From positions 1 through 38,743 of IMG/VR virus record IMGVR_UViG_3300034062_004969: DNA of 38,743 nucleotides; one strand, given 5' to 3'. The position numbers and the translations under genes are program-made. Positions 8,850-38,743 of the stretch are shown here, one piece after another. Source of the DNA: a virus. A model generated the notes under the pieces. The model saw nothing but the letters and a program-made list of their open reading frames with translations, searched no databases and was not told where the DNA came from. The first letter of the stretch is position 1. Every line of letters begins with the position of its first letter.

Positions 8850-8855
8850 CATTAT

Positions 8856-10300: not shown

Positions 10301-10301
10301 C

Positions 10302-11003
10302 ATGTTCATTATTCCCACATATTATGATGGCCAAAAATCTAAAATAGGTGAGACAATAGAATCTATTAAATTTTTTAATCCAAACGAAAAAATAGTAATA
10401 TGTGATTCAGATTCCCCCGTAAAAGGATATGAAAAAAATTATCTAACTGATAATGTAGAATTTTTTAACGCTAAAAATAATAGAAGACCATTTGGGGCTT
10501 TACTTGAGACGTATAAAAAATACCCAAATGAAGACAACTATATTCTAATACATGATACAACTTCATTACTATCAAATATTGATAATTTTATAAAAAATGA
10601 TAGTTTGATTACATCATTTTTATTTGCACATAAACCAATACAGTATTTAGTCCCTCAAATTAGAAATGAGTATTTTGTATGGATGGAAAATTTAATGAAC
10701 AATACTAAATATGATTTTATATCAGATATAAGAACAGATGAAAATTATCTGATATGTGTAGGTTCAATGGGAATTTACAAGAATAAAATTATTGATAAAT
10801 TTTTTAAAATGGGTTTATATGAAAATTTTAATTCATTTTCTTTTAATGAAGGTCAATTTTCTGAAAGAGCTATAGGGTATCTTTGTAAAATTGAGGGTAT
10901 TGATATTGAGAAAAATACAATTGAAGGTAATGTACATGAAAAATGGGATGGACTTGTTAATGGGAATCTACAGTATTTAAAGAAAACATTTAATGGTAGA
11001 TAA
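10302..11003 (+). CDS. Probable glycosyltransferase-like protein, GT-A type, divergent
   Basis: A 233-residue protein. FIIPTYYDGQKSKIGETIESI and KIVICDSDSPVKGY near residues 2-46 resemble the first strands of a GT-A fold. YILIHDTTSLLSNID near residues 82-96 may hold the metal site in altered form. The C-terminal part has SFNEGQFSERAIGYLC, which could be the acidic catalytic helix. I cannot assign a CAZy family. It starts 1 base after the previous stop and its end overlaps the next gene by 11 bases. Function is inferred from fold-like pattern and context. Confidence 0.55.
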   Translation: MFIIPTYYDGQKSKIGETIESIKFFNPNEKIVICDSDSPVKGYEKNYLTDNVEFFNAKNNRRPFGALLETYKKYPNEDNYILIHDTTSLLSNIDNFIKNDSLITSFLFAHKPIQYLVPQIRNEYFVWMENLMNNTKYDFISDIRTDENYLICVGSMGIYKNKIIDKFFKMGLYENFNSFSFNEGQFSERAIGYLCKIEGIDIEKNTIEGNVHEKWDGLVNGNLQYLKKTFNGR

Positions 11004-11604
11004 TCAAATTATATTATATACTTCAGCGTTAATTAATAATCAGTTTGAGTCTAGAAAAAACGATTACATTCAATCGTATAATATTTTATTAGATATAATT
11101 GATTATAAAAATATTTTTATTGTGGAGTGTTATTCAAATAACGAAAATTTTTTTTCCGAATTTAAAAGTCCTAAATTTTTAACTAATACTCATATATCTG
11201 AAATTAAAAATAAAGGAGTTTTAGAAGTTATGGGTATGAAAAAATTCATAGAAAATACTGAAATTTCTGATGAAACTTTAATTATTAAAATTACAGGTAG
11301 GTATAAATTTATTAACGATGATTTTTTTAAATTAATAAATACTAATAAAAATTTTGATTTTTATGGTAAATTAATCGATAATAATACTCAAATTTTTACA
11401 GGATGTTTTGCGTTAAGAAAAAAACACTTTAAAAATTTTTTTAATTTTTGTAATTTGGATAACATGGAAAAAAACATGATTAATTTTGAAAAAAAAATGT
11501 TTAATTTTTTAAATGAAAATAATATTAATTCTTTTTTTACCGATAATATTAATATAGAATGTCCTATATTTGGTTACGGGAACATACAAACACATAATAT
11601 ATGA
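10993..11604 (+). CDS. Hypothetical glycan-locus protein, possible glycosyltransferase
   Basis: A 203-residue protein, very rich in Asn, Lys, Phe and Ile. ILYTSALINNQFESRKNDYIQSYNIL and a LIIKITGRYKFINDDFF segment (about residues 96-112) resemble WavE-like and related LPS transferases, in which a K-[IL]-[TS]-G-R-Y motif precedes the active site. FDFYGKLID and FTGCFALRKKHF follow. There is no clear DxD. It overlaps the previous gene by 11 bases and the fucosyltransferase gene by 4. The tie to the fucosyltransferase suggests work on the same glycan, but this is inference. Confidence 0.5.
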   Translation: MVDNQIILYTSALINNQFESRKNDYIQSYNILLDIIDYKNIFIVECYSNNENFFSEFKSPKFLTNTHISEIKNKGVLEVMGMKKFIENTEISDETLIIKITGRYKFINDDFFKLINTNKNFDFYGKLIDNNTQIFTGCFALRKKHFKNFFNFCNLDNMEKNMINFEKKMFNFLNENNINSFFTDNINIECPIFGYGNIQTHNI

Positions 11605-12371
11605 TAATTTCTAAAATACAAGGGGGAATAGGTAATCAGTTGTTTCAATGGGCATTTGCTAAAAATTTATCAATATTAAATAACAATGATTTTTTTTTAG
11701 ATGTTTCTTTTTATGAAAATCAGACAAATGTTACCAAAAGAAAATTTTCATTGGGTTCTTTTCCAAAGATTAATTTTAGTATTTTAAATCCAAATGATTT
11801 AAAATCTTTTAACGTACTTGAAGACAATTTTTCAATTCGAAAAATTGAAATCAACAAAGATGAAAATTTTTATTTAGATGGGTATTGGCAATCTGAAAAA
11901 AATTTTATAGAATCGTCAAAAATAATTAAAGAAGAATTATCTCCTACTAATGAAATTAAAAAAAAATTAGAACTGTTACTACCTAAAGGAATAAATGTTT
12001 CATTACACATACGTAGAACTGATTATTTATCATCTAATGGATTTCATCCTGTATTATCAATAGACTATTATATTAAATCTTTAAATCTAATTAAAGATTA
12101 TGATAATATTATAATTTTTTCAGATGATATTGAGTGGTGTGAAAAAAATTTGACGTTTAATAATTCATTCTTTATTAAGAATTTATCAGATGTTGAAAAT
12201 CTATGGTTAATGTCAATGTGTAATCATAACATAATTGCTAACTCATCTTTTAGTTGGTGGGGAGCTTGGTTAAATGACAATCCAAATAAAATAATTACCG
12301 CACCTAAAAAATGGTTTGGTTCTAACATAAATACTGAAAATATTATACCAAATGAATGGTATAAATTATAA
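11601..12371 (+). CDS. Alpha-1,2-fucosyltransferase (GT11)
   Basis: Transfers L-fucose from GDP-fucose to a galactose-type acceptor. The 256-residue protein has the family opening ISKIQGGIGNQLFQWAFA (3-20), DGYWQSEKNF (93-102), the GDP-binding motif HIRRTDY (136-142), IIFSDDIEWC, and the closing ANSSFSWWGAWL. Length is a little under the usual 280-300. This is the clearest functional link in the cluster, because the two enzymes that make GDP-fucose from GDP-mannose are encoded at 19463-21338. A soluble enzyme of this type would act in the host cytoplasm. It overlaps the upstream gene by 4 bases. Confidence 0.92.
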   Translation: MIISKIQGGIGNQLFQWAFAKNLSILNNNDFFLDVSFYENQTNVTKRKFSLGSFPKINFSILNPNDLKSFNVLEDNFSIRKIEINKDENFYLDGYWQSEKNFIESSKIIKEELSPTNEIKKKLELLLPKGINVSLHIRRTDYLSSNGFHPVLSIDYYIKSLNLIKDYDNIIIFSDDIEWCEKNLTFNNSFFIKNLSDVENLWLMSMCNHNIIANSSFSWWGAWLNDNPNKIITAPKKWFGSNINTENIIPNEWYKL

Positions 12372-12374
12372 AAA

Positions 12375-13610
12375 ATGAAAAATATAACTAAAATATGTGA
12401 TTTCAATATTAAAGAATTATTTTTACAAAAAGATAAAAATAATCGAGAAATATACATATATAATTTAGAAAATTTTAAATTTGTAAAAGGATATAATTTT
12501 TACCCAAACGTATTGTTAACAAATAATGAAATAGTTATTAATCCAATTGAAGAAATAACTATGTCATTAAAAGAAATTTCCGATAATAATCAAATTTATT
12601 TTGATGAGATTAAATCGACTAATAGAGTCAGTAACCCTGTTTTTTATTTTATTTATAATACTGACAATTATTTTCACTTCATTTATGATAGTTTACCATA
12701 TTTAATTTCTTTTTTTGAAATTAAAAAAAAATATCCGGATTTAAAATTATTGATGAATTACCCAAATTATCAAAAAACAGAATTTTATCAATTCACTATT
12801 GAATTTTTAGAATTAATCGGTATTTCTCAAAAAGAAATTATCTTATTAGATGAAACATCGACATATGATAAAATTTTTGTGTCTTCATCTTTCACACATG
12901 GTATTGACTCAAATTTATCACCTAGAGAAGAAATATATTTGTTTTATAATGAAATAATAAAAAAAACTAAAAAAAATACAAATAAAAAATTTCCTGAAAA
13001 AATTTATATATCTAGACGAACATGGATAAATAAAGATTTTAAAAATATTGGTACAAATTACACAACTAAAAGAAAATGTGAGAATGAAGATGAGTTAGTT
13101 GAATTTTTAAATTTAGAAGGATATACTGAAGTATTCACAGAATCACTCAGTACTGTTGAAAAAATCCTACTTTTTAACAATGCAAAATCAATTATTGGTA
13201 CAATAGGTGGAGGACTATGTAACACTCTTTTTTGTAATGAAAATACTGAATTAATTTGCATAGTATCACCTACTTTTTTTGATGTAAATGAGAGATTTAA
13301 ATTTTCTTTTAAAAAAATAAAAGTTGATTACTTTAATAAGTGTAATCATTCCGAATTAAATGAATGGAAAAAATTCATGAGGGTCTCAACTGACTCAGGA
13401 ATAATTGGTGAAATTACAAACGTTGACAATGATGAATTAACTGTATCATATGTTGATAAAAAAGTTAGTGGGTGGAATAATGAATTTAATTTAAAAAGTG
13501 AAAATTTTAATAAAAAAAATTGTAAAAAATTAGATAATGGATTAAACTCTTCTTGGATTATTTTAATGGACTCATTTATTAGTTTTTATAATAATTTAAA
13601 AAAAAAATAA
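12375..13610 (+). CDS. Glycosyltransferase family 61-like protein
   Basis: A 411-residue protein. The centre (about 90-310) matches the GT61 layout: NYFHFIYDSLPYLISFFE, DKIFVSSSFTHG, KIYISRRTW, then a TEVFTESLSTVEKILLFNNA helix and IIGTIGGGLCNTLFC. GT61 enzymes transfer xylose, GlcNAc or related sugars. The last 80 residues (after about 330) are an added segment of beta-rich, Asn/Lys-rich sequence with no family I know. No membrane segment is seen. It starts 3 bases after the fucosyltransferase stop. Confidence 0.8.
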   Translation: MKNITKICDFNIKELFLQKDKNNREIYIYNLENFKFVKGYNFYPNVLLTNNEIVINPIEEITMSLKEISDNNQIYFDEIKSTNRVSNPVFYFIYNTDNYFHFIYDSLPYLISFFEIKKKYPDLKLLMNYPNYQKTEFYQFTIEFLELIGISQKEIILLDETSTYDKIFVSSSFTHGIDSNLSPREEIYLFYNEIIKKTKKNTNKKFPEKIYISRRTWINKDFKNIGTNYTTKRKCENEDELVEFLNLEGYTEVFTESLSTVEKILLFNNAKSIIGTIGGGLCNTLFCNENTELICIVSPTFFDVNERFKFSFKKIKVDYFNKCNHSELNEWKKFMRVSTDSGIIGEITNVDNDELTVSYVDKKVSGWNNEFNLKSENFNKKNCKKLDNGLNSSWIILMDSFISFYNNLKKK

Positions 13611-13619
13611 TTAAAAATA

Positions 13620-15068
13620 ATGAAAGTTGCATTAATCATATCAGGATACCTTAGAAGTTTTTATGTTAATATTCCGACAATAAAAAATAAAATTTTAAAT
13701 AATTTTGAACAAGTTGATGTATATCTTCATATTACAAAAAATGAAGATGAAGATGACAAATATTTAAATATTAATTTTAACGATGAGTTAAGTTATGTGA
13801 AAAATATGTTAAATCCAATTTGTGTTATAACTGAGCCTAATTTTGTATTTTCTAAAAACAATAAAGAAAATAATTTATTAAACACATGGTTTAAATACTA
13901 TAAATTAAATTTAGTAAAAAAAGAAAATGAAAAAATTTTAGGAAAATATGATTTAGTAATAAAATATCGTCCTGATTTAAATTTAAATTCTGATAAAATT
14001 TTCCCGAATAAAATAGATGAAAATTGTGTTTATATACCTGAATTAAGTGTTGTTGACGTTGGAAAATTGACTAACAAAACTGACAAGTACATATGTGATA
14101 TATTTGCATATGGAGATTCAGACGTTATGGACAATTATTTTAATTTTTTTATAAATTTAAAAAAATTGTCTTTGAATTACGGATTTATTTCTGAAACTTT
14201 ATTATATGAATTTTTAATTCAAAATGAAATTAACTACAAACTAATTGATGTCGATTATAGTGTAATATTATCATCCTGTAATGTTTTTGCAATTTGTGGT
14301 GATTCTGGTTCGGGTAAAACCACTTTAGGTAACGCTCTTAAAAAATATTTTTCAAATTCATTTATGCTAGAATGTGACAGATATCATAAATGGGAAAGAG
14401 GTGATGAAAATTGGAAAAAATTAACTCATTTAAACCCTGAGGCAAATTATATAACAAAAATGTCTAATGATATTTTTGATTTAAAAATAGGAAAATCAAT
14501 TTATCAAGTAGATTATGACCATAAGACAGGTAAGTTTACTGACAAAGAAAAAATTGATAGTTCAGATAACTTAATTGTATGTGGGTTACATAGTTTATAT
14601 ACTGATAATAATTCAATATATAATTTAAAGATTTTTATAGACACTGATGTTAAATTAAAAACTAAATGGAAAATTAAAAGAGATATTAAAAAAAGAGGAT
14701 ATAATTTATCAGAAGTTTTGACTCAAATTGAAAAAAGAAATAAAGATTACACCGAATACATATACCCTCAAAAAGAATTATCAGACATTGTAATTAATTT
14801 TTATAGTGAAGAAGAAATTAATTATGATTTGGATAGTGAAAATAAATTATCGCTAATTATACTTGTAAATAAAAGGTATAATATAATTAATATGTTAAAC
14901 ACATTATCCAAATATAAAATACCTTTTGAATTAAATTCAAGTAATTTAATTTTTAATGAGATAAAATTTAAAGAATATACAAATTGTAACTTAACTAATA
15001 GTAACGAACCATTTAATAATTTCTATGACTACATTATATTTTTCATATTAAATTTAAAAAAACTATGA
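13620..15068 (+). CDS. Fusion of a glycosyltransferase-like domain and a uridine-kinase-like P-loop kinase
   Basis: A 482-residue protein of three parts. Residues 1-215 start KVALIISGYLRSFYVNI and include YDLVIKYRPDLNLNSDKI, like the glycosyltransferase-type domains of LPS loci. Residues about 222-400 are a kinase of the uridine kinase/phosphoribulokinase type: AICGDSGSGKTTLGNAL (Walker A 227-235), ECDRYHKWERGD (the acidic residue and Tyr-His after strand 2), VDYDHKTGKF, LIVCGLHSLY and an arginine-rich lid (KIKRDIKKRGYN). Residues 400-482 are unassigned. It probably phosphorylates a sugar or polyol on a hydroxyl using ATP. The neighbouring aldolase and nucleotidyltransferase fit a pathway for an activated small sugar. 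Confidence 0.78.
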   Translation: MKVALIISGYLRSFYVNIPTIKNKILNNFEQVDVYLHITKNEDEDDKYLNINFNDELSYVKNMLNPICVITEPNFVFSKNNKENNLLNTWFKYYKLNLVKKENEKILGKYDLVIKYRPDLNLNSDKIFPNKIDENCVYIPELSVVDVGKLTNKTDKYICDIFAYGDSDVMDNYFNFFINLKKLSLNYGFISETLLYEFLIQNEINYKLIDVDYSVILSSCNVFAICGDSGSGKTTLGNALKKYFSNSFMLECDRYHKWERGDENWKKLTHLNPEANYITKMSNDIFDLKIGKSIYQVDYDHKTGKFTDKEKIDSSDNLIVCGLHSLYTDNNSIYNLKIFIDTDVKLKTKWKIKRDIKKRGYNLSEVLTQIEKRNKDYTEYIYPQKELSDIVINFYSEEEINYDLDSENKLSLIILVNKRYNIINMLNTLSKYKIPFELNSSNLIFNEIKFKEYTNCNLTNSNEPFNNFYDYIIFFILNLKKL

Positions 15069-15823
15069 TAAGACATGTCATTTATTCACATACGGATTAT
15101 TTAGAAATTTTAAAAATACAAACAGACTATGTTAGTCCGATTGAAAATAAAACATTATTAATTAATAAAAATAATTTTGATTTATCTGAAATTTATGAAA
15201 AATATCAAAATGTTATTTTTTATGACGATAGTTTACCTTACGCAAGTCGCCTTCTTTCATTATCATCTTTAAATGATGATTTTATATTATTCATACATGA
15301 TATTGACATTTTAATTAATGAAAATACTGAAATTATAAAAAATTTATACGAATACGCAAAATCTAATAACATTGATAGGGTAGATTTACAATATTTTGAT
15401 AGGTCTTGGAATCCAAATTCAAAATTCATTCCATTTGAAATACACGAAAATAATTTTGGATTAATTCAACAAGATAACCCAAGTGGATACATTTATAATG
15501 TTAACCCATCAATTTGGAAATTATCAGTTTTATTAGAAATAATGAATACGTTTAAAGATAGAAATTATAGAAACATTGAGGATTTTAGTACTCAAATCTA
15601 TTGTCAAAAATTTAAAATTTTTAAATTATTTTCAGAAAATTATATTAATTGTGGTTATTTTAAATGTTTACCATTTTTTACATTTTTACACATAACTCAT
15701 GGAGGTGGTTTTATGCCGACATTAAATAACGGACTTCCTAATGACATACAAATATTATATAATAATATAATTGAAAAATATTTGAAAAATTCTAACAGAC
15801 ATTTTAGGGTGTCAATGCATTAA
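15065..15823 (+). CDS. Hypothetical glycan-locus protein, possible GT-A glycosyltransferase
   Basis: A 252-residue protein. It starts RHVIYSHTDYLEILKIQ and has NDDFILFIHDIDILINE near residues 74-90, where His-Asp-Ile-Asp fits a DxD metal site after a hydrophobic strand. It then has VDLQYFDRSW and a PSGYIYNVNPSIWKLSVLLEIM segment. THGGGFMPTLNNG near the C-terminus is a conserved-looking loop. I do not recognise a named family. The ATGA overlap with the kinase fusion suggests joint expression. Function is inferred from fold-like pattern only. Confidence 0.55.
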   Translation: MIRHVIYSHTDYLEILKIQTDYVSPIENKTLLINKNNFDLSEIYEKYQNVIFYDDSLPYASRLLSLSSLNDDFILFIHDIDILINENTEIIKNLYEYAKSNNIDRVDLQYFDRSWNPNSKFIPFEIHENNFGLIQQDNPSGYIYNVNPSIWKLSVLLEIMNTFKDRNYRNIEDFSTQIYCQKFKIFKLFSENYINCGYFKCLPFFTFLHITHGGGFMPTLNNGLPNDIQILYNNIIEKYLKNSNRHFRVSMH

Positions 15824-15837
15824 TAAATAATAAATAA

Positions 15838-16497
15838 ATGGTTAAGGATTTAATTTTACTAGGGAAAGAAATTTCAAAATTTGTTGTTGGATTTGAAGGT
15901 AACATATCAAAAAAAATTAAAAACAAAATAATAATAAAATCTTCAGGTTCTAAATTAGACTCATTAACTATAGAAGATTTTGTAACGTTTGATTTTAATT
16001 TAACTCAACTTGATAATTTCCCTAAAAAGGGAAGTATGGAATTAGGATTTCACAAATATTTTTTATCACATGATGATATAAATTTTGTAGTTCATACTCA
16101 CCCTGTCAATTGTTTAAAAATTTTATGTACTAAATTATCAAAAAAATTTAGTAATAAAAGATTATTTCCTGACCAAGTAATTTTTAATGGTGAAAAATCT
16201 TTACTGATACCTTACGTAACTCCAGGAGTTGAATTAGAAGAAAAGATAATAGAATTAGTTGAGGAGTGGAAAATAAAATTTAATAAATTACCTGATATTA
16301 TTTTATTACAAAATCATGGTATAATAACTTTTGGTAAGACATTAAATGAATGTATAGTTAAAACAGAAATTTGTGAAAAATCCGCAGAAATATTTTTATG
16401 GTCGATAAAATCAAGTCAACCAACCTTTTTGGAGGAAAAAGAAATTTTAAAATTAATAAACGATGAAAAAGAAAAATATAGGTTATCAAAATTATGA
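15838..16497 (+). CDS. Class II aldolase/adducin-family protein
   Basis: A 219-residue zinc-dependent aldolase-like enzyme. It has the phosphate loops GNIS (21-24) and SSGSKL (35-40), the acid SMELGFHKY with Glu68, the metal pair VHTHP (His86, His88) and the third ligand LQNHG (His160). All match the FucA/AraD/RhaD family, which cleaves or joins sugar phosphates, or epimerises or decarboxylates them. The substrate cannot be read from sequence. L-fuculose-phosphate is tempting given the fucose genes, but the small-sugar kinase and nucleotidyltransferase nearby fit equally well. It follows a 14-base gap and overlaps the HAD gene by 4 bases. Confidence 0.88.
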   Translation: MVKDLILLGKEISKFVVGFEGNISKKIKNKIIIKSSGSKLDSLTIEDFVTFDFNLTQLDNFPKKGSMELGFHKYFLSHDDINFVVHTHPVNCLKILCTKLSKKFSNKRLFPDQVIFNGEKSLLIPYVTPGVELEEKIIELVEEWKIKFNKLPDIILLQNHGIITFGKTLNECIVKTEICEKSAEIFLWSIKSSQPTFLEEKEILKLINDEKEKYRLSKL

Positions 16498-16787
16498 AAG
16501 TGATTTATGTAGATATTGATGAAACAATATGTTTAACACCTAAAAGTAGAAAATACGAGGACTCTACCCCAATTATTGAAAATATAAAAAAAATAAATAA
16601 ATTATATGATGAGGGTAATACTATAGTTTATTGGACATCAAGGGGTAGTCGAAAACAAATTGATTGGTATGAATTAACATATAAACAGTTAAATGAATGG
16701 GGTGTTAAATTTCATGAACTTAGAGTTGATAAACCATATTATGATTTATTTATTGATGATAAAACATTAAGAATTGAAGAACAATGA
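16494..16787 (+). CDS. Small HAD-superfamily phosphatase-like protein (97 aa)
   Basis: A short HAD of the capsule-biosynthesis type. Motif I is VIYVDIDETIC (Asp7 and Asp9), motif II IVYWTSRGSRKQ, then KPYYDLFIDDKTLR with the Lys and the paired Asp of motifs III and IV. All four catalytic elements are present in under 100 residues. It would remove phosphate from a small sugar phosphate. It lies between the aldolase and the phosphodiesterase-like gene with 4-base overlaps on both sides, so the three are likely one pathway. It resembles the HAD encoded at 4293-4703. Confidence 0.82.
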   Translation: MKVIYVDIDETICLTPKSRKYEDSTPIIENIKKINKLYDEGNTIVYWTSRGSRKQIDWYELTYKQLNEWGVKFHELRVDKPYYDLFIDDKTLRIEEQ

Positions 16788-17233
16788 TTATAATTTCACA
16801 CAGAGGTAACATTAATGGTCCTAATCCTGATAAAGAAAACAGACCTAGTTATATTGATTGTGCTATCCAATTAGGATACGATGTTGAGGTTGATTTAAGA
16901 TATATAAATGGTGAATTTTGGTTAGGCCACGATGAGCCTCAATATAAAATTGAGCTTTCATGGATGTTACTTAGAAAAAATAAAATATGGTTTCATTGTA
17001 AAGATGAAAATTCAGTGTTAGAACTTTTAAATTTAGATTTAAATTTTAATTTTTTTTGTCATTTTAATGATGATTTTGTATTAACAAGTTCTGGACATTT
17101 ATGGGTACATAATTTAAGTTTAAAACTTACTAAAAAATGTATAATTCCATTATTAAGTTATAAAGAAATACAAAATTTTAATAAAAAAGAAATTTACGGG
17201 ATATGTACTGATTTTGTAAATGAATTAAAATAA
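16784..17233 (+). CDS. Glycerophosphodiester phosphodiesterase-like protein, short
   Basis: A 149-residue protein resembling the first part of a GDPD TIM barrel: IISHRGNINGP (catalytic His-Arg), KENRPSYIDCAIQLGYDVEVDLRY (Glu and Asp metal ligands) and FWLGHDEPQY (second His). The usual family length is 230-260, so the later strands are missing or shortened; it ends with YGICTDFVNELK. GDPD enzymes split glycerophosphodiesters into an alcohol and glycerol-3-phosphate. In glycan loci, short versions appear beside nucleotidyltransferases. It could release or trim a phosphodiester substituent. ATGA overlap with the HAD gene. Confidence 0.75.
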   Translation: MIIISHRGNINGPNPDKENRPSYIDCAIQLGYDVEVDLRYINGEFWLGHDEPQYKIELSWMLLRKNKIWFHCKDENSVLELLNLDLNFNFFCHFNDDFVLTSSGHLWVHNLSLKLTKKCIIPLLSYKEIQNFNKKEIYGICTDFVNELK

Positions 17234-17295
17234 TTAGATTATAATGATAAAACATATAATAAAATCAAAACTAATAATTAAAATTGAATTACTAT

Positions 17296-18867
17296 ATGAA
17301 AAATAATATAAAATTAATAATTCCTATGTCAGGAATTGGCAAAAGATTTATATTGGAAGGATACTCAATACCTAAACCATTAATACTTGTTGATGGTTTA
17401 CCAATAATACAACACGTTGTTAATTTATTTCCAGGAATTAATGAAATTCATTTCATTTGTAATGAAATACATATTCAAAATACTGATTTAGTATCTATAT
17501 TAAATTCAGTAACCAAAAATCCCATAATTCATACGGTACCTAATGAAAATAGAAAAGGTCCTGTTGATGCGGTGTTAAAAATAATTAACAAATTTAATAA
17601 TAATGATGAAATTATTGTCAGTTATTGTGATTATGGAACAGTATGGGATTTTGGTAAATTTTTAGAATTTAAAGAAAAAACAAATTTAGACGGTATCATT
17701 CCTTGTTACACTGGATTTCATCCACATATGTTAGGTAATGATAATTACGCATATTGTAAAATAGATAACAATTTAGTTCAACAAGTTAAAGAAAAAGAAC
17801 CTTTTACTAATAATAAAATGAACGAGTATGCATCAAATGGTACTTATTATTTTAAAAAAGCAGAATACATTAAAAAATATTTTAAAAAATTAATTGATTT
17901 AAACATTAATATTAATGATGAATTTTACGTTAGTTTAGTTTATAATCTTTTAATTGAGGATGGATTAAACGTAGGGATTTATGAGATTGATAAAATGTTA
18001 CAGTGGGGTACCCCACATGATTTAGAAAATTATTTGTGGTGGTCAAATTATTTTAAAAAAATAAAAAATCAATCTTCTCAAATTAAAAATCCAAAAAACA
18101 CAACATTAATTTTACCTATGGCTGGAAAAGGTAGTAGATTTTCTGAAGAAAATTTTAATTTACCAAAACCTTTATTACCTATAAATGATAATCCTATGGT
18201 TATTGAAGCAGTTAAATGTTTACCATACTCAGATAAAAATATTTTTATATGTTTAGATGAACACATTAATGAGTTTAATATTAATAATGTTTTAAAAAGT
18301 TATTTTAAAAATTCTGAAGTAATTGGTATTTCAAAAACAACAGAAGGACAAGCGTGTACATGTGAAATTGGTATTAATGAATTTAATTTAAACTTAGAAA
18401 ACCCAATTATGATTTCAGCATGTGATAATGGTGTTTTTTACAATAAAGAAAAATATGAAAATTTATTAAATGATGAAAATATTGATGTAATTGTATGGTC
18501 ATTTAGAAATAATCAATCAAGTAAATTAAACCCTAATTCATACGCTTGGATGGATGTGGATAATAATGATAATATTAAATTTGTTTCTTGTAAAAAATTC
18601 ATATATGAGGACCCTTTAAAAACACATGCTATTATTGGTACCATGTTTTTTAGGAAAGGAAAATATTTTATAGATGGACTTAATCAAAATTATAAATTAA
18701 ATTTTAGGACCAACGGTGAGTTTTATGTTGATGATGTCATTAACAGATGTATTGAAAACGGATTAACAGTTAAAGTTTTTGAATGTGACAATTATATATG
18801 TTGGGGCACTCCACAAGATTATTTAACCTACAAATATTGGAATGAACATTTTTTAAAATATAACTAA
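17296..18867 (+). CDS. Tandem nucleotidyltransferase (two sugar-nucleotide-type domains)
   Basis: A 523-residue protein made of two homologous halves. Each has a pyrophosphorylase signature: LIIPMSGIGKRFI then IPKPLILVDG in the first, and LILPMAGKGSRFS then LPKPLLPIND in the second (starting about residue 270). Each half also has its own acid site (SYCDYGTVWDFGKF; ISACDNGVFYNKE) and ends in a matching WGTPHDL / WGTPQDY motif. They would couple a sugar or polyol phosphate to a nucleotide. I use the ATG at 17296 rather than the TTG at 17284. A 62-base gap precedes it. Its stop overlaps the next start by one base (TAATG). The last gene of the very AT-rich block. Confidence 0.85.
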   Translation: MKNNIKLIIPMSGIGKRFILEGYSIPKPLILVDGLPIIQHVVNLFPGINEIHFICNEIHIQNTDLVSILNSVTKNPIIHTVPNENRKGPVDAVLKIINKFNNNDEIIVSYCDYGTVWDFGKFLEFKEKTNLDGIIPCYTGFHPHMLGNDNYAYCKIDNNLVQQVKEKEPFTNNKMNEYASNGTYYFKKAEYIKKYFKKLIDLNININDEFYVSLVYNLLIEDGLNVGIYEIDKMLQWGTPHDLENYLWWSNYFKKIKNQSSQIKNPKNTTLILPMAGKGSRFSEENFNLPKPLLPINDNPMVIEAVKCLPYSDKNIFICLDEHINEFNINNVLKSYFKNSEVIGISKTTEGQACTCEIGINEFNLNLENPIMISACDNGVFYNKEKYENLLNDENIDVIVWSFRNNQSSKLNPNSYAWMDVDNNDNIKFVSCKKFIYEDPLKTHAIIGTMFFRKGKYFIDGLNQNYKLNFRTNGEFYVDDVINRCIENGLTVKVFECDNYICWGTPQDYLTYKYWNEHFLKYN

Positions 18868-19466
18868 TGAAAAAATATGCACAACACGATGAGGAGGATT
18901 TTTTAAAATCTTATTTTAATGAAAAAGGGTTTGTTGTTGAGATTGGAGCCGCAGATGGTATCACGAATTCTAATTCAAGGATGTTAATTGAAAGTGGGTG
19001 GGGTGGCTTATTGATAGAGCCAAACATTATCAACTTCAAAAAACTAGAATCGCTTTATAATCAAAACAACACAGTTAATTGTTTAAATTGTGGTTGTTCT
19101 GATGAAGAAGGCGAACTAACTTTATTTGTTGACCATAATGATGAGTACCATCAAATTTCAACCTTTTCCGAACAACAAAAAATTAATTGTATAAGTTTGT
19201 ATAATTGTACTTTTTCAGAACAAAAAATATCAGTAAGAAAGGCTATGAATTTGTTCGAAGAATTCAACATAAACAAAATAGACTTTTTGAGTATTGATAC
19301 TGAAACATATGATACAAAAGTTATTAAAGGTATCGATTTTGAAAAAGTAGATATTGATTTAATTTGTGTAGAAACCTTGACATCAGAACTATTGAATTAT
19401 TTAGAAAAATTCGGTTACACAATAATCAAAAGAGGTAATAATACTTTTTTATCCAAGAAAAAATGA
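18867..19466 (+). CDS. FkbM-family methyltransferase (second copy)
   Basis: A 199-residue SAM-dependent methyltransferase-like protein. GFVVEIGAADGITNSNSRML near residues 18-37 is motif I. GLLIEPNIINFKKL follows (end of strand 2), then IDFLSIDTETYDTKVIKGI, the FkbM region with Asp and Glu, and ICVETLTSELLNYL. The AADG-N-S-N signature is the subtype usual in phage and LPS loci. Compared with the FkbM at 8856-9482 it is divergent and less AT-rich, so it is not a recent copy. It overlaps the nucleotidyltransferase by 1 base and the GDP-mannose dehydratase by 4. Confidence 0.87.
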   Translation: MKKYAQHDEEDFLKSYFNEKGFVVEIGAADGITNSNSRMLIESGWGGLLIEPNIINFKKLESLYNQNNTVNCLNCGCSDEEGELTLFVDHNDEYHQISTFSEQQKINCISLYNCTFSEQKISVRKAMNLFEEFNINKIDFLSIDTETYDTKVIKGIDFEKVDIDLICVETLTSELLNYLEKFGYTIIKRGNNTFLSKKK

Positions 19467-20434
19467 AAAAAGCGTTAATAACGGGTATCAACGGTCAGGA
19501 TGGTTCATATCTCGCTGAGTTTCTAATATCTAAGAGTTATGAGGTTCATGGTACTTTGAAAAGAAATTCAGTTTCAGAAAATCAAACTTTCAGATTAGAT
19601 AATGTTTATAATTTAGTGAATTTACATTATGCGGATATGAGTGATTTGTCGTCTCTAATTTCTGTAATACAAAAAGTGATGCCTGATGAAATATACAATT
19701 TAGCGGCACAATCTCACGTCAGAATTTCTTTCGACCAACCGATATATACCGCTAACGTAACCGGTATCGGAACACTAAATCTTTTGGAGGCGGTCAAATT
19801 AATAAAACCAAATACAAAAATTTACCAAGCTTCATCATCGGAAATGTTTGGTAATTCAATAGATTTAGATGGTTACCAAAGGGAAAAAACGCCACTTAAT
19901 CCAGTATCACCTTACGGTTGTGCAAAGGTATTTTCTTATAATGTTTGCAGAAACTACCGTAACTCTTACGGTATGAAAATTTGGAATGGAATCCTATTCA
20001 ATCACGAGTCCCCGAGAAGAGGAACAAATTTCGTAACAAATAAAGTAGTTAAAGAGGCTGTAAAAATAAAACTCGGATTATCCGAAGAATTAAGATTAGG
20101 CAACTTGGAGGCGACGAGAGATTGGGGACATGCTAAGGATTATGTGGAGGCTATGTGGTTAATGTTACAAGATGAGACACCAGATGATTATGTATGTGCA
20201 ACTGGTATTTCCAACTCCGTAAGAGAATTGTGCGACTATACTTTTTCTAAATTAGGATTAGATTATACAAAATATGTTATACAAGACGAAAAACATTTTA
20301 GACCTGAAGAATTAAATGATTTGAAGGGTGATTCGTCAAAATTAAGAAATAAATTAGGTTGGCAACCGAAATATACTTTTGAGTCGATGATTGATGAAAT
20401 GATAGAGTATTGGTTAAATTACTATGGGAAGTAA
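19463..20434 (+). CDS. gmd: GDP-mannose 4,6-dehydratase
   Basis: Converts GDP-D-mannose to GDP-4-keto-6-deoxymannose with NADP, the first step to GDP-L-fucose. An extended SDR: GINGQDG at 8-14 binds the cofactor, SSSEMFG (124-130) holds the Ser and Glu of the catalytic set, and YGCAK (Tyr151, Lys155) follows. The GMD-specific FNHESPRRGTNFVTNK substrate segment is intact. At 323 residues it is slightly shorter than the usual 340-370. It overlaps the next gene, GDP-fucose synthase, by 11 bases, as expected for consecutive pathway steps. Base composition is back to the level of the flanking phage genes. Confidence 0.95.
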   Translation: MKKALITGINGQDGSYLAEFLISKSYEVHGTLKRNSVSENQTFRLDNVYNLVNLHYADMSDLSSLISVIQKVMPDEIYNLAAQSHVRISFDQPIYTANVTGIGTLNLLEAVKLIKPNTKIYQASSSEMFGNSIDLDGYQREKTPLNPVSPYGCAKVFSYNVCRNYRNSYGMKIWNGILFNHESPRRGTNFVTNKVVKEAVKIKLGLSEELRLGNLEATRDWGHAKDYVEAMWLMLQDETPDDYVCATGISNSVRELCDYTFSKLGLDYTKYVIQDEKHFRPEELNDLKGDSSKLRNKLGWQPKYTFESMIDEMIEYWLNYYGK

Positions 20435-21338
20435 GATATTAGTCACTGGTGGGTACGGTTTGGTCGGTTCCGAATTCAATAGTTCGAATTATATACCACT
20501 GTCGTCAAGTGATGCCGACCTAAGAGTTAGGTCTGAAGTCGATAATGTTTTAAAAAAAATTAATTTTGATGGTATAATTCATTGCGCCGCAAAGGTCGGC
20601 GGTGTAGGCGGTAATATGTCATATAAGGGTGATTTTTTCTATGACAATATAATGATTAATACTAATGTTATAGAATCAGCAAGGACTCATAAAATTAAAA
20701 ATTTAGTTGCTTTTTTATCAACTTGTGTTTTTCCCGATAAAGTAGAATACCCCCTCACAGAAAAAAAAATTCATTTAGGACCACCTCATTTTTCTAATGA
20801 TGCATATGCATATGCAAAAAGAATGGCGGACATCCAAATAAGGGCATATAGAGAACAATACGGATTAAATTATAAGTCAGTAATACCAACAAACATTTAC
20901 GGACCTAACGATAATTACAACATCGAAAATGGTCATGTCATACCATCTTTAATTCATAAGTGTTACTTAGCCAGGGAAAATAAAACACCATTTACAATAT
21001 GGGGAACAGGAAAACCATTAAGAGAGTTTATTTTTAGTAAAGATGTTGCAATACTAACTGAATGGGTTCTTCACAATTATGATGAACCTGAACCAATTAT
21101 ATTATCGACATCAGAAGAAATCTCAATAAAAAATGTGGTTGATATCATTACAGAATTGATGAACTTTAAAGGTAGTGTTATTTGGGATGAGTCAAAACCT
21201 GATGGTCAATTTAGAAAACCGAGTGATAACAGTAAAATAAAAAGTTATTTACCTAACTTTGAATTCATCAATTTATATGATGGATTAAAACAAACAATTG
21301 AATATTTTGAAAAAAATTATAGTATTATAAGAAAATGA
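20424..21338 (+). CDS. fcl: GDP-L-fucose synthase (3,5-epimerase/4-reductase)
   Basis: Converts GDP-4-keto-6-deoxymannose to GDP-L-fucose with NADPH. The 304-residue SDR has TGGYGLVGSEF (8-18), HCAAKVGGVGGN (53-64, the family-specific loop), FLSTCVFP (Ser99 and Cys101, the epimerisation cysteine), YAYAK (Tyr128, Lys132) and NGHVIPSLIHK with the catalytic His. Length matches the usual 300-320. It is directly downstream of gmd with an 11-base overlap. Together they supply the donor for the alpha-1,2-fucosyltransferase at 11601-12371. PhoH follows after one base. Confidence 0.95.
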   Translation: MGSKILVTGGYGLVGSEFNSSNYIPLSSSDADLRVRSEVDNVLKKINFDGIIHCAAKVGGVGGNMSYKGDFFYDNIMINTNVIESARTHKIKNLVAFLSTCVFPDKVEYPLTEKKIHLGPPHFSNDAYAYAKRMADIQIRAYREQYGLNYKSVIPTNIYGPNDNYNIENGHVIPSLIHKCYLARENKTPFTIWGTGKPLREFIFSKDVAILTEWVLHNYDEPEPIILSTSEEISIKNVVDIITELMNFKGSVIWDESKPDGQFRKPSDNSKIKSYLPNFEFINLYDGLKQTIEYFEKNYSIIRK

Positions 21339-29690: not shown

Positions 29691-31184
29691 ATGTCTATAA
29701 ATAATTCATATTTCAGTAGGAATAATACGATATTATCTAATGTCTATACAAACACAGGAAAGGCTCCTGTGACACAATTATATTTCGGAAACTATAACCC
29801 TGAAAATCCAACACCTGTATACTCACGTTTCATATTCGATATTGATTTATCATTATTACAACAAAAAATTTCGGACGGAATAATCCAAACAGGGTGTACG
29901 TCGTCAATGACACATACCCTTATAATGACAAATACTGTATTTTCATCTCCTGATTTATTGAAGTCAACAAGATTTGGTGGTGAAATTACAAGAGGTTCAG
30001 GTTTTGATTTGATATTATTTAGAATACCTTTGACATCAGGAACTACAGGTACTGAACAAACTTGGGACGAAGGATTGGCGTCTGTTTATGATTTGGGTAT
30101 TCAGATAAATGATACCGAATCAATATTTGCTAGAGAAAATTATTCTACTGAACCATCAAATTGGTTCAAAAGAATGTTAACCAATGATTGGACAACGCCA
30201 GGTCTATACAATAATCAGAATTCTTTAACAGGAAATACAGGTTTAAATTATTCAGCACTTACAATTATAGACGAACAACATTTTGAATTTGGTAACGAAA
30301 ACATTTCATTTGATATGACAAATGAAATAAATGGAATATTAAATGGTACAATTTCAGGAGTTACAGGGTGGGGTGTGGCGTTTAAACCGAATATCGAATT
30401 ATTAACAGGACTAACATCTTACTATTCTGTAGGGTTTTTTACTCGTCACACACAAACATTTTACGAACCTTATTTACAAACAAATTACGATGATTTAATT
30501 CAAGACGATAGAGATTTATTTTCATTAGGAAAAGCGAATAAATTATATTTGTATTTGTATGAAGACGGAAGTCCTATTAATTTGGATTCAAACCCAACCG
30601 TTTCAATTTACGATAGTACTGGTGACCCAATAGAAGGACTGACCGCACTTACTACATGTAGAAAAACTCAAGGTGTTTATGAAGTCACCATACCCGCACT
30701 TTTAGGGTATAAAACACCTTGTACATTTACTGATGTATGGAGTAATTTATCTCTAAATGGTGTTGAGTTACCTGATGTTGAAAACGAGTTGATTGTGCGA
30801 CCTTATTCGTCCTCAATTTCAATAGGTACATCAACTAACGAACCATCAGTTTATGGTTTTGATTATTATGGTATAAAACAAGATGAAAAGATATTAAATA
30901 CAGACATCAGAAAAGTTGGTGTTATCATCAAAAAAGAATATACATCAAATCAACCACTTAACAAAATCAAAGCGTATTATAGGGTTTATGTTAAAGAAGG
31001 ACAAACAGAAGTACAAGTCCAAGATTGGACACTAGTCAACAAGACACCAAATGAATATTATTTTATATTCGATACAAGAGACAAAATTCCAAACGAATAT
31101 TTTATAGATTTAAAGTTAAATATCAATAGTGAAGTAACAACATATAAAAAACAAATAAAATTTCAAATTGTAAATAAAAAATGA
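29691..31184 (+). CDS. Virion structural protein, probable tail/baseplate protein (497 aa)
   Basis: A 497-residue protein dominated by beta strands, rich in Ser, Thr, Gly, Asn and Tyr, with few helices. Residues about 20-130 begin LYFGNYNPENPTPVYSRFIF. Residues about 300-380 (KANKLYLYLYEDGSPINLDSNP; GVYEVTIPALLGYKTPC) look like an Ig-like sandwich, and residues about 400-495 (IRKVGVIIKKEYT; IKAYYRVYVKEGQTEVQVQ) another. This domain style suits a tail fibre-connector or baseplate wedge. The gene is separated from the hub gene by 35 bases with the ATATTTATA element and ends with a 4-base overlap into the next gene. Family not identified. Confidence 0.7.
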   Translation: MSINNSYFSRNNTILSNVYTNTGKAPVTQLYFGNYNPENPTPVYSRFIFDIDLSLLQQKISDGIIQTGCTSSMTHTLIMTNTVFSSPDLLKSTRFGGEITRGSGFDLILFRIPLTSGTTGTEQTWDEGLASVYDLGIQINDTESIFARENYSTEPSNWFKRMLTNDWTTPGLYNNQNSLTGNTGLNYSALTIIDEQHFEFGNENISFDMTNEINGILNGTISGVTGWGVAFKPNIELLTGLTSYYSVGFFTRHTQTFYEPYLQTNYDDLIQDDRDLFSLGKANKLYLYLYEDGSPINLDSNPTVSIYDSTGDPIEGLTALTTCRKTQGVYEVTIPALLGYKTPCTFTDVWSNLSLNGVELPDVENELIVRPYSSSISIGTSTNEPSVYGFDYYGIKQDEKILNTDIRKVGVIIKKEYTSNQPLNKIKAYYRVYVKEGQTEVQVQDWTLVNKTPNEYYFIFDTRDKIPNEYFIDLKLNINSEVTTYKKQIKFQIVNKK

Positions 31185-31687
31185 AAAAAGTAGTTAAGTT
31201 AACAGAATCCGATTTAAGTCGTATTGTTAAAAGAGTATTAAATGAATCTCACGAAGATTATTCAGATAGATATATGTTCTTTTCAAATTTAGAACAAATG
31301 AGAAGACAATGTGATATGTTATTAGAGTTAGACCAAGATATGGTAACTGAGATATTAGATGACGGTCACGATTGGGCTCAGGACCATATCGCTGAGGCCA
31401 AAAATAATATGGACCAAGTTTTTGATTTTATGATGAATCATATTAAAGGTGATGGTGTACAAGATATTGAGGACGCATCTTTCACAGGTATGATGGAAGA
31501 AGGAAGAAAAAAAACAGGAACAAAATTATGCTCTAGGGGATATGCCGCAGCAAAATCCAAATTCAAAGTCTTTCCTAGTGCATATTCGAACGGCTACGGT
31601 GTACAAGTATGTAAAGGTACAATGCCAGGTTTAGATGGGAAAAAAAGATGTAGCCCACCTTATTGCGGGTCAAAAAAGAAAAAATAA
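31181..31687 (+). CDS. Putative internal head protein with capsid-targeting-like N-terminus
   Basis: A 168-residue protein. Residues 1-22 form an amphipathic helix (KLTESDLSRIVKRVLNE) ending in Leu-Asn-Glu, followed by Ser23, exactly a gp21-type cleavage site ([IL]xE|[ASG]). The middle is acidic and helical (residues 30-100). The C-terminal 60 residues are basic with four Cys: KLCSRGYAAAKSKFKVFPSAYSNGYG and VCKGTMPGL, then KRCSPPYCGSKKKK. The LTESDL..IVKRV.NE start is a pattern I have seen in environmental phage proteins. A packaged, DNA-binding, injected protein fits. It overlaps the structural gene by 4 bases. Confidence 0.7.
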   Translation: MKKVVKLTESDLSRIVKRVLNESHEDYSDRYMFFSNLEQMRRQCDMLLELDQDMVTEILDDGHDWAQDHIAEAKNNMDQVFDFMMNHIKGDGVQDIEDASFTGMMEEGRKKTGTKLCSRGYAAAKSKFKVFPSAYSNGYGVQVCKGTMPGLDGKKRCSPPYCGSKKKK

Positions 31688-34239: not shown

Positions 34240-36114
34240 TTATCTCAATTCATTCAAATCAAATGTACGAACTCCATCAACGGTAATGCGGCCATAGAAG
34301 CGGTTATTTACCATTTTTTTCGCGTATCTTGTCATAATCCCTTTAATTGGTGTGAAGTTAAACGGATTGTACATAGTTGGAGTCAACTGTAGAGGTACAT
34401 ACGGTGCGTAAATGTAACCTGTGTCAAGTAACGATGTACCTTTGTGACCAATCAACACCTGATTAGCAGGGAAGTAAGGGTCACGGTATACTTGGTAACG
34501 ACCTGATAGAGTACCCACTCTTTCAATACCCATGTTATATTGGTCTTGTTCAGGAGACGCATTTGATACGTGGAAGTATTCCAAGTCATCAAAAATCGCA
34601 GAAATCTCAGAAGAAACAATAATCCAATTAGCACCACCACGAAGTGTTGATTTGTGGATTTGTGCAGAAATTTGGTTAATCGCAGTAATCAAAGTTTGAT
34701 TCCAGTCTTTTTGAGTATATGGAGTAGTTCCTGATGAAGACAGACGCTTCCATCCGTTGTAATCCCAACGAAGATTCCAAGCCGCACCTTTACGTAAATC
34801 ACGTAAAATTTCACGGTCAATTTCTGCCGCAACTTGTTCTGACAATAAAGCCGTTAATTCAGCCTCAGCGTCAATATTATGGAAAGCCGCAACGTCTTGA
34901 GCAAGTTCAGGTGACCATTGTGCTCTTAGTTTTCTTTCAGTTACAGAAACTGTTACTGACTCAAGGTCAAAAGAAACCTCACCGATTTTATCTTCAAATT
35001 CAAGTTCTTCGTAACGTCTCCATGCCGCGGAAATGTTTGTAGTTCCAGACCAAGTACTGTTAGTTAAAGAAGCCCCTGAATATCCGTCAGGTGTTGACTG
35101 ACCACAAGATACGCATACAGGAACTTGAGCATCAATTTCTAAATAAATGACACCATTAACATCACAAACGTTATCATAATAACCACCATTTCCACCTGAA
35201 GCCGCTCTACTAAATGCTGCTTGAGCCACATTATATGAAGGACCTACAATTCCTTGACCGTATTTTTGAGTAACAACTCTGAAAAGAAGTGGAGAATATG
35301 TAGAAACCCCAAGATTTGTTGCTGCTGTTGAATTTGCTGTATAAAGTACTAAATTTGATAGGAATGATTCAGTGTCAATTTCCTGGCCGTCAGGACCAAT
35401 TAATTTACCAACACCTGAAGTTGAGAATCCTGAAAGACCTACAATAATTTTTCTAAATTCTTTGGTACTTGCAGCGGCCTCTCCGAATACAGTGTAACCT
35501 GATACAATCAAAGCTCCGTTTGACCATGCAACTGTATTAGTTCCACCGGTCATAACAATAAATCTACCTTTTGAATAGTCAAAAAGACCTGCTGGATTCA
35601 AACCTGGTTCTGTACCTTCGTAAAACAAATCATAAAGATTCTTAGCATATGGTGTTCCTGAGTTGTAACCAGCGTTAGGGTCTCCAGGATAATTACCCGG
35701 TGAACCAACAGGTCCATAATGTTGACCTGAATCTGAAAAACCACCAGGTACTAAAGCATCTGCAGTTGCACCTGTATATCCCTGAATTTTAGGTACGAAA
35801 TAGAACAATTTACCGATTGGTAAATTCATCGCCTGAACTGATACGATTTCGTTAGCTAACAATTTAGAGAATACGCGTCTAACGATTGGAAATACAACAG
35901 TTTCGAATGAACCTGAAGATGAGTCAGATGTTGCTTCGTTAATCAAATGTGACGCTTGGTTTTCGTACAACTGCGCAACATTTTCTTTTAGGTGGCCTTT
36001 AAGACCTTCTAGGAACCCTAATCTGTCCCATTTGTTTATTGTGTCTTCTTTGATAACTTTAAGGTGCTTAAGACCGATGTTACCAACAAGACCTGATTCT
36101 AATAATGCTCCCAT
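34240..36114 (-). CDS. Major capsid protein, T4 gp23-like
   Basis: A 624-residue capsid subunit (T4 gp23 is 521). It forms the hexamers of the head. The HK97-fold core signatures are clear: FETVVFPIVRRVFSKLLANE (about 70-90), AMNLPIGKLFYFVPKI (95-110), VTERKLRAQWSPELAQDVAAFH (391-412), AEAELTALLSEQVAAEIDREIL and a C-terminal TPIKGIMTRYAKKMVNNRFYG. Residues 1-60 are a helical pro-region ending HLINE, then Ala61 (bases 35932-35937), an ideal prohead-protease site. Residues about 120-360 hold most of the extra length, including Cys317, Cys334 and Cys337. It lies 28 bases after the scaffold gene and ends before a strong terminator. Confidence 0.95.
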   Translation of the reverse strand: MGALLESGLVGNIGLKHLKVIKEDTINKWDRLGFLEGLKGHLKENVAQLYENQASHLINEATSDSSSGSFETVVFPIVRRVFSKLLANEIVSVQAMNLPIGKLFYFVPKIQGYTGATADALVPGGFSDSGQHYGPVGSPGNYPGDPNAGYNSGTPYAKNLYDLFYEGTEPGLNPAGLFDYSKGRFIVMTGGTNTVAWSNGALIVSGYTVFGEAAASTKEFRKIIVGLSGFSTSGVGKLIGPDGQEIDTESFLSNLVLYTANSTAATNLGVSTYSPLLFRVVTQKYGQGIVGPSYNVAQAAFSRAASGGNGGYYDNVCDVNGVIYLEIDAQVPVCVSCGQSTPDGYSGASLTNSTWSGTTNISAAWRRYEELEFEDKIGEVSFDLESVTVSVTERKLRAQWSPELAQDVAAFHNIDAEAELTALLSEQVAAEIDREILRDLRKGAAWNLRWDYNGWKRLSSSGTTPYTQKDWNQTLITAINQISAQIHKSTLRGGANWIIVSSEISAIFDDLEYFHVSNASPEQDQYNMGIERVGTLSGRYQVYRDPYFPANQVLIGHKGTSLLDTGYIYAPYVPLQLTPTMYNPFNFTPIKGIMTRYAKKMVNNRFYGRITVDGVRTFDLNELR

Positions 36115-36142: not shown

Positions 36143-37714
36143 TTATTTTATAATCTTACTCATGATATCTTTCATTCTTAAGAATTGAGGATTCTCATAA
36201 GTTTTAGATTCGATTAATGTCGACGCTGAACCAGATGATGGAGAATTTTCAATTTTTCTCTCTATTGATTCATTAATCGACGGTTTATTTGTTGATGTTA
36301 ATTCACTTTTGATTGTACGATATAGATTTTTGGATTCTTTAAGAGATTCCACACCATCAAATCTTCTCAGGATATTGATTTTTTCTTGTTTAGATGTTGA
36401 GTGTTCAGTAAATAATCTTGTTGCGTATGCTAAGTTTGAATTAAAAACTGCAACTTCATTAAGTTTATCTCTGAACACATTTAGTGCTTTACGATATTCT
36501 TCGTTTTTCTCTCTAAGAATTTGTATTTGTTCTAGATTTCTTTCGCTACCTTCAAAAGTAAGGTTTCTGTTTGGAGTAATTCCTTTTCTTAAACCGCGTC
36601 CGCTTTTTGAGCCCATACCATAAGTACGTGCCGCTTCTTTAGTTTCTTTCTTTTTGAAAGGAGCCATTTCCTTTTTAACTGCATTAGAAATGTCTTTTTT
36701 CTCCTCTTTGAATTCAAACTTTTTAGGTCCTTTACCCATACCGACACCTCTTGTACCTTGTTTCATGTTTTCTTTAAATCCTCCTGATGTTTTCTTGTAT
36801 GAGAATTTAGGTTTACCAATTTTAGCACCTTTACCAATTTTTGGTTTAGTTGATTCCATTTGGATATCATCCTGTTCATACATTTCGTCGTCCTGTTCAT
36901 CCATTTCGATTTCATACATAGATTCTTCTTCACTTTCATCCATGTCCATTTCATACATTTCATCATCCTCTCCTTCAGCACTTTCGTCCATCTCAATTTC
37001 ATAAACAACTTCTTCGTCATTTTCATCCATTGGTTCTACGTCATTACTGAAAACTTGGTCAATTATTGCATCTATGTCCATATCTTCTTCGTCAGAATCC
37101 ATGTCTTCTTCATACATTTCATCTTGCTCCAACCCTAAATCAGCCAAACTTACGTTGTCCTCATCCATTTCCATGTCGTCTTCGTACATTTCCATGTCGT
37201 CTTCGTACATTTCCATGTCGTCTTCGTACATTTCATCATCAGACTCGGTTTGAATCATGTACTCTTTATCTATGTTGTCGTCTTTTAGATTAATCATGTT
37301 ATTGTCTCTTTTTACTGTAATACCGTCTTCATCGTCCATCGCCAAGAAAACCTTTAATAGGTCATCATCAGAAATATCAGAACCTGATAAATCAATAACA
37401 TCATCATCAGACATTTCGGTGTCACTTATATCAGAATCCATGTCCATATCCATTTCATCAGAATCCATGTCCATTTCATCTTCATCAGAATCCATGTCCA
37501 TTTCATCAGAATCCATGTCCATGTCCATTTCATCATCTGCTCCAATCTCCTCGTCATCATCACCTTGTTCTGACACGATAGATTCTTTTACTAATTCTTT
37601 GATTTCTTGCTTCATTGTAGATGCAAGTATTCCTTTTGCATTCTCGGCTACCGCTTCTTCTAAATTCTTCATTTGAATAAGAGCGTCCTCAACCAAATTT
37701 TTTTCTTTTGCCAT
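36143..37714 (-). CDS. Prohead core scaffold protein, gp22-like, with a long acidic repeat region
   Basis: A 523-residue internal scaffold (T4 gp22 is 269). The C-terminal part (about 385-523) is helical and gp22-like: REKNEEYRKALNVFRDKLNE, VAVFNSNLAYATRLFTEHS, then YENPQFLRMKDIMSKIIK. Residues 51-290 are an extreme Asp/Glu/Met-rich region with repeats DMDSDEMDM and YEDDMEM. Residues 290-380 are Lys/Gly-rich. Sites of the prohead protease type occur at LEE20|A, LKE460|S, INE482|S and LIE502|S, as expected for a scaffold that is cut up on maturation. It lies between the DUF4494-like gene and the capsid gene. Confidence 0.85.
   Translation of the reverse strand: MAKEKNLVEDALIQMKNLEEAVAENAKGILASTMKQEIKELVKESIVSEQGDDDEEIGADDEMDMDMDSDEMDMDSDEDEMDMDSDEMDMDMDSDISDTEMSDDDVIDLSGSDISDDDLLKVFLAMDDEDGITVKRDNNMINLKDDNIDKEYMIQTESDDEMYEDDMEMYEDDMEMYEDDMEMDEDNVSLADLGLEQDEMYEEDMDSDEEDMDIDAIIDQVFSNDVEPMDENDEEVVYEIEMDESAEGEDDEMYEMDMDESEEESMYEIEMDEQDDEMYEQDDIQMESTKPKIGKGAKIGKPKFSYKKTSGGFKENMKQGTRGVGMGKGPKKFEFKEEKKDISNAVKKEMAPFKKKETKEAARTYGMGSKSGRGLRKGITPNRNLTFEGSERNLEQIQILREKNEEYRKALNVFRDKLNEVAVFNSNLAYATRLFTEHSTSKQEKINILRRFDGVESLKESKNLYRTIKSELTSTNKPSINESIERKIENSPSSGSASTLIESKTYENPQFLRMKDIMSKIIK
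37160..37232 (-). repeat. Tandem 21-base coding repeat in the scaffold gene
   Basis: About three copies of a 21-base unit (tcgtcttcgtacatttccatg on the plus strand) encode YEDDMEM repeats in the scaffold protein. They are in frame, so copy number can change without breaking the gene. Confidence 0.85.
37432..37532 (-). repeat. Short Asp/Met/Ser coding repeats in the scaffold gene
   Basis: Imperfect tandem units built on tcagaatccatgtccat (plus strand) encode the DMDSDEMDM run near residues 62-95 of the scaffold. Unit lengths vary in multiples of three, which suggests slippage growth under a constraint to keep the acidic charge. Confidence 0.8.
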
Positions 37715-38126: not shown

Positions 38127-38743
38127 TTACTTATTTAAGTAAGTATTTAATCGATTCATCAAGTTTAAAGACTTGTTTGCTTCAGGACCAACATGACGTT
38201 CTCTCTGAGTTTGTTTTTCTTCTTCTAAATTCTCCTCGAAATTACCTCTATCTTCAGGGTTAGAAAATAGATACGCTCCTGGAGTAGAAGGAGATGATAC
38301 CAAGTCAAAACAAATTAATTCGAAATCATCTTGAACTTCATTTTGTTCACCTATTTTCTTTAATGAACCAACACCTCTTGATGATATACCTAAAGTTACA
38401 CCTTGTCTTAAATAGTTTGCCGCCAAATCTCCTTTTGTTGAGCAAATACCTCTTTCGTGAAAACCTGGTGAAGTTAACAATCTTAATTTACCCATCAATA
38501 TTATTCCATCCCACCATATATCAGTTATAATGTGAGAAACTCTATCTAAGTCAATTAAAGATGATTCAGGGTGATTCAACTCAGAGAGCGAAACACCCTT
38601 ATTAATCATTTTCTTGTAATTTTCTGATTCTCTTTTTAATATTTTTTCAGGATAAATCCTACCATTACGATTTGGTGTATTATATTTTTGTAGAACCGCA
38701 TAAAACTCAAATGGTTTACTGTGGTCCATAAAACTTTTGGATT
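38127..38743 (-). CDS. Prohead core protease, gp21-like, start probably beyond the window edge
   Basis: A serine protease that cuts scaffold and capsid pro-regions during head maturation. Counting from the ATG at 38729, His53 is in SLSELNHPESS and the nucleophile Ser in TLGISSRGVGSL (116-117). ICFDLVSSPSTPGAYLF gives the acidic and substrate strand. The frame stays open from that ATG to the window edge, so the true start may lie outside. Visible length is 200 residues, near T4 gp21 (212). It leads the head block in T4 order (21, 22, 23). Confidence 0.9.
   Translation of the reverse strand, partial: SKSFMDHSKPFEFYAVLQKYNTPNRNGRIYPEKILKRESENYKKMINKGVSLSELNHPESSLIDLDRVSHIITDIWWDGIILMGKLRLLTSPGFHERGICSTKGDLAANYLRQGVTLGISSRGVGSLKKIGEQNEVQDDFELICFDLVSSPSTPGAYLFSNPEDRGNFEENLEEEKQTQRERHVGPEANKSLNLMNRLNTYLNK

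Follow-up and report, generated by a model that had tools for sequence, protein, structure and literature searches.

The window, by which we mean the whole stretch of DNA analysed here, comprises positions 1–38,743 (38,743 nt) of the IMG/VR virus record IMGVR_UViG_3300034062_004969. It carries a T4-type head locus, consisting of genes for a gp21-type prohead protease, a gp23-type major capsid protein and, between them, an acidic putative scaffold (Table 1). The gp21-type protease, encoded alongside gp23, matches PF03420 with 80.5 bits, passing the curated cut-off of 27. The predicted site in the capsid protein is, as we assume from an alignment by eye, the place where T4 gp23 gets processed, and the same form of the site (E followed by A or S) was present in all 31 of the 31 capsid proteins read. 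For the putative scaffold, no family match was found in Pfam and PHROG profile searches. Its relatives begin with an N-terminal helix of the form EI..LVKESL.E and have Q as the next residue in 27 of 46 cases, so that an E/Q junction is common to the scaffold and to the tags described below. Since the hhalign profile comparison of tag and scaffold helix gave a non-significant score (probability 0.6%, E 0.089), we make no claim that the two share an origin. Elsewhere in this phage genome, positions 1778–21338 hold, as judged by eye, a long series of glycosyltransferase-like, nucleotide-sugar and epimerase-like ORFs.

Table 1 Features of the window discussed in the text (a slash marks a predicted or candidate cut)
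Feature	Position	Strand	Remarks
168-aa protein	31181..31687	+	Tag, acidic helical domain (about residues 23-107), basic Cys-rich C-terminal domain (108-168) including phrog_27331
Leader, capsid-targeting-like tag	31181..31246	+	Residues 1-22, MKKVVKLTESDLSRIVKRVLNE, then SHEDY
Predicted cleavage site L20-N21-E22/S23	31238..31249	+	E22 invariant in 39/39; P3 always I or L
Candidate second site E106-E107/G108	31496..31504	+	Ahead of the C-terminal domain; E107 and G108 invariant in 39/39
Second candidate cargo protein, 237 aa	32656..33369	-	Leader MTNRDKKINE/ATVSSSSG; C-terminal helix NENLRSLIKNILNE/IKSS
gp23-type major capsid protein	34240..36114	-	PF07068, E 4.3e-73; predicted site LINE/ATSDSSSG
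Acidic putative scaffold, gp22 position	36143..37714	-	Between gp21 and gp23; relatives aligned; N-terminal helix ends LVKESIVSE/Q
gp21-type prohead protease	38127..38729	-	PF03420, E 1.5e-22; phrog_207 head maturation protease, E 3.7e-42

The ORF for the 168-aa protein was confirmed as previously described, with a leader followed by Ser23 (codon 31247–31249); the N-terminus of the product reads MKKVVKLTESDLSRIVKRVLNESHEDY. The leader holds two matches to [IL]xE/[ASG], LNE22/S23 and LTE9/S10, and the latter is a possible second candidate cleavage site. A structure model predicts a helix for residues 9–24, but with a mean pLDDT of 60 this prediction is weak, and a fold comparison with the low-confidence model returned no match. 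What follows the leader had been called basic and Cys-rich. This description fits the C-terminal 61 residues (108–168; net charge +15, four Cys) but not residues 23–107, which have a net charge of −17 and a single Cys. The basic part includes a profile match to phrog_27331 at residues 113–156 (E 4.4e-11, 43.9 bits), a domain that forms a standalone protein in the T7-like Prochlorococcus phage P-SCSP2 and stands at the protein start in Pelagibacter phage HTVC023P, in both cases without the tag. A second cut at E107/G108 is possible, if weakly supported: P3 is mostly Met in the orthologs, and the site therefore matches L/I-x-E poorly.

Within a single window, a match to [IL]xE/[ASG] proves nothing by itself, as it occurs at chance frequency: [IL]xE with P1 at residues 7–32 is present in 23 of the 48 window genes, and in 7 of the 48 it is followed by A, S or G. 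The WYL-domain protein at 673–1065 (PF13280, E 8.7e-5), which starts with MKLYNSLKTLILE/VAS, has another such [IL]xE leader, at chance level when taken alone. For comparison, we retrieved 80 related loci and aligned 39 proteins. In these orthologs the leader up to the conserved E measures 11, 13, 14, 16, 21 or 22 aa, with sequences that range from MEKLIKKILKE/E to MKKVVKLTESDLSRIVKRVLNE/S. E22 is the sole leader residue that is invariant, and position 20 (P3) is L in 27 proteins and I in 12, which bears out the earlier reading that the leader ends at [IL]xE. The retention of E22 despite such variation in length, together with the occurrence of the tag at the start of about 110 unrelated proteins (see below), lifts the leader above chance. 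The proposed restriction of P1′ to A, S or G had to be abandoned, since this position is S in only 13 of the 39 orthologs (Q in 9, T in 9 and E in 8), and most tags have Q or N there.

The tag is found on many other proteins. As a DNA pattern, LTESDLxxIV occurred in at least 119 stretches of viral contigs, versus 7 for the reversed pattern. Among the matches listed, the tag stood 4–12 codons after an ATG in 142 of 148 instances (exactly six in 109), and proteins of 60 aa or more bore 121 distinct tags, of which 120 end in [ILMV]xE and one does not. Within the same set, E is at position 16 in 109 of the 121, and in 11 the [ILMV]xE comes exactly four residues later, an offset of about one helical turn; [IL]xE at the main register is present in 104, and the residues counted at P1′ of [IL]xE tags include Q (46), N (19), E (11), S (10) and D (5). 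The explanation by chance, that is, a common N-terminal helix meeting a common short motif, could draw on the frequency of the motif in the single window, but it is refuted by the pattern counts, the N-terminal placement among the matches listed and the ortholog alignment, and we regard it as exceedingly improbable. The mature parts of the tagged proteins listed divide into 110 groups with similarities below 70%, and the conservation common to all of them is the tag alone. Few of these groups match Pfam; 13 families were found, including LysM and PG_binding_1. The first-pass annotation had suggested that this start is common to a whole class of proteins, and uncultured phages do encode about 110 unrelated proteins that carry it. 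Such reuse of one tag on many unrelated proteins suggests a portable signal for sorting, comparable to the leader that the T4 internal proteins share.

In a tag profile search, the highest number of matches was 24, in a 335-kb record; a 108-kb record had 17. Some tagged genes form tandem arrays (loci L160 and L097), and in the protein at L180:100-912 two tag copies flank a different domain, an arrangement that looks like the insertion of a cargo module at the tag. In a tblastn search of annotated phages with the window tag and the consensus tag we found no match, although a query of 23 aa may be below the sensitivity of this method. Among the nearest named relatives, Microcystis phage Mel-JY01 and LR756502 gave no match in the tag search, and LR756508 gave one weak match. 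The huge phages LR756508.1 and LR756502.1 have other recurrent protein starts, e.g. M[RK][LF]K.[LI]L.E and M[KQ]Y[IL]K.F, which are possibly lineage-specific tags of a like kind. In an open-access literature search, the motif string of the tag appeared in no paper, and neither a paper linking a capsid targeting sequence with metagenomes nor virion proteomics for the tag-bearing lineage was found.

We compared 50 tag-bearing records with 30 control records, which were mostly shorter. PF03420 (gp21) was detected in 31 and gp23 in 33 of the 50, and gp21 was present in 31 of the 33 tag-bearing records that hold gp23; in the two others, gp23 lies at the contig end. The 17 records without gp23 also have no HK97-type capsid and no T4 portal, and are thus probably fragments without a head module. 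Tag-bearing viral records without gp21 were therefore dropped as counterexamples. Every head module found in tag records was T4-type with gp21, save the two cut near gp23. The controls contained PF03420 in 2 of 30 cases and tags in none. This concordance may stem from the common descent of one phage lineage. The proposed tie between the motif and gp21 phages stands for the viral records holding gp23, but it does not extend to the Prevotellaceae genomes considered next.

Long-form tags also occur in bacterial assemblies, and PF03420 was present in 4 of 17 such genomes. The Prochlorococcus single-cell assembly AG-409-L21 has two tagged genes (L350, L355) and PF03420 on a 64-kb contig, which is a phage contig within the assembly. 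Prevotellaceae genomes, in turn, hold chromosomal tagged genes without gp21, and from these bacterial copies it is clear that the tag can be present where the protease is not; [IL]xE is mostly retained in them. In Prevotellaceae and related genomes the tagged genes mostly adjoin an IS1595-type transposase (PF12762), usually in a tail-to-tail arrangement (L311, L366, L387, L389, L408, L409 and L415, with a remnant in L381), and viral contig L175 has a similar pair of tagged gene and transposase. The tagged chromosomal genes may therefore be passengers of a mobile element, possibly a transposon that ferries them between phage and host genomes. Four genomes (L308, L311, L346 and L389) have a small conserved gene (MEYLKEDGSLDIERINKLP...) close to the tagged one; where the layout was seen, the two genes are divergent. 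The association with the transposase, the tandem arrays and the tag-bounded insertion in L180 would all fit a shared start that is a mere recombination seam for swapping cargo genes, with little sorting function. However, a seam does not need an invariant E at a moving position, and within one orthologous family the amino-acid pattern is retained as length and wording vary, so we consider this explanation very unlikely.

Further evidence on the end of the leader comes from the neighbouring 237-aa protein, whose predicted site resembles that of the capsid protein. The motif [ILVM]xE/[ASTGVIN][TSN] is present in 58 of 60 relatives, where the leader is 7–41 residues long, with Ala at P1′ in 49. 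Its C-terminal helix NENLRSLIKNILNE is of the short-tag kind, and some relatives have a full tag inside the protein or at its end. C-terminal processing is also described for T4 Alt and gp21 (PMC9026906). An uncut docking helix, which would fix accessory proteins to the core, portal vertex or tail and in which the E would belong to the docking surface or the helix end, could account for a P1′ that is mostly Q, N, E or S instead of the A or S of capsid proteins, for the [IL]xE retained in chromosomal copies without gp21 and for an LTESDL half conserved beyond the needs of cleavage. It does not explain why ortholog leaders are shortened and reworded with [IL]xE alone kept, why the end of the long form moves by four residues but retains [ILMV]xE, or why, over such a range of leader lengths, [IL]xE persists in the neighbouring protein, with A as the usual next residue. 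We therefore view an uncut helix as unlikely.

The tag could also be an intracellular address, directing proteins to a membrane, a replication compartment or a host target during infection, unrelated to the virion. Basic amphipathic N-terminal helices can bind membranes, tag copies exist outside phages, and some tagged proteins include LysM or peptidoglycan-binding modules. Such modules would serve no purpose in the cytoplasm of the host and for this reason count against injection. On the other hand, the head modules in tag records are all T4-type with gp21, and the [IL]xE end resembles the sites in the capsid protein and in the neighbouring head-locus protein, which makes an intracellular address unlikely as well.

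Despite the unusual P1′ residues and the LysM or peptidoglycan-binding modules, which both speak against it, we conclude that the tag is probably a lineage-specific capsid-targeting sequence of a large group of uncultured T4-like phages, cut by gp21, whose cargo would be ejected with the DNA. The tag itself, its reuse, the invariant E and the concordance with gp21 and gp23 can be read directly from the sequences; from these we infer docking, cleavage, packaging and ejection of the tagged proteins. The amphipathic tag helix would dock the protein into the prohead core as the head assembles, the gp21-type protease would cut after the terminal [IL]xE (E22 in the 168-aa protein), and the mature protein, freed in the head, would leave with the DNA at ejection. 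The original reading, a T4-like leader on a packaged cargo, is thus partly supported: the tag, its [IL]xE end and the link to gp21 stand, whereas the details on P1′ and charge do not. As to the wider proposal, that in one lineage of uncultured T4-like phages a single portable tag brings more than 100 unrelated families into the head, in part as polyproteins that are joined by tags and cut by the prohead protease, so that the tag alone would list the injected proteins, we see the chances as evenly balanced.

The proposed mechanism would be that of the T4 internal-protein leader with a different leader sequence. In T4, gp21 cleaves after L/I-x-E with few further requirements, the targeting of IPIII needs no more than its first 10 residues, and a review has proposed that T4-like phages can package a variety of proteins by means of the leader (PMC9026906). 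As far as this source describes them, T4 IPI–IPIII and Alt are like the tagged proteins in having a short N-terminal leader ending in L/I-x-E on unrelated, variable mature proteins, and T4 and the tag phages are alike in having gp21, gp23 and a scaffold, with leader-bearing genes that vary between relatives. The tag differs from the T4 leader, as compared by eye, in its sequence, only the final [IL]xE agreeing; in its number, with up to 24 matches per genome versus a handful of leader-bearing proteins in T4; in its P1′, mostly Q, N, E or S; and in its internal or C-terminal position in some proteins. In the giant phages phiKZ and SPN3US, many head proteins have propeptides, which a gp21-like protease cleaves after Glu (PMC9026906, PMC10052503). 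The tagged proteins would resemble the ejection proteins of these phages in being many different head proteins, but the tag phages add one common leader, which these accounts do not describe for phiKZ or SPN3US, and the phiKZ/SPN3US protease is, according to them, only a diverged relative of gp21.

Injected phage head proteins are hard to find, since they vary fast and mostly have no known domains. A recognisable packaging label would turn this task into a sequence search. The tag would predict many candidate anti-defence and host-takeover proteins in uncultured phages, and would give laboratory phage systems a new peptide for loading cargo.
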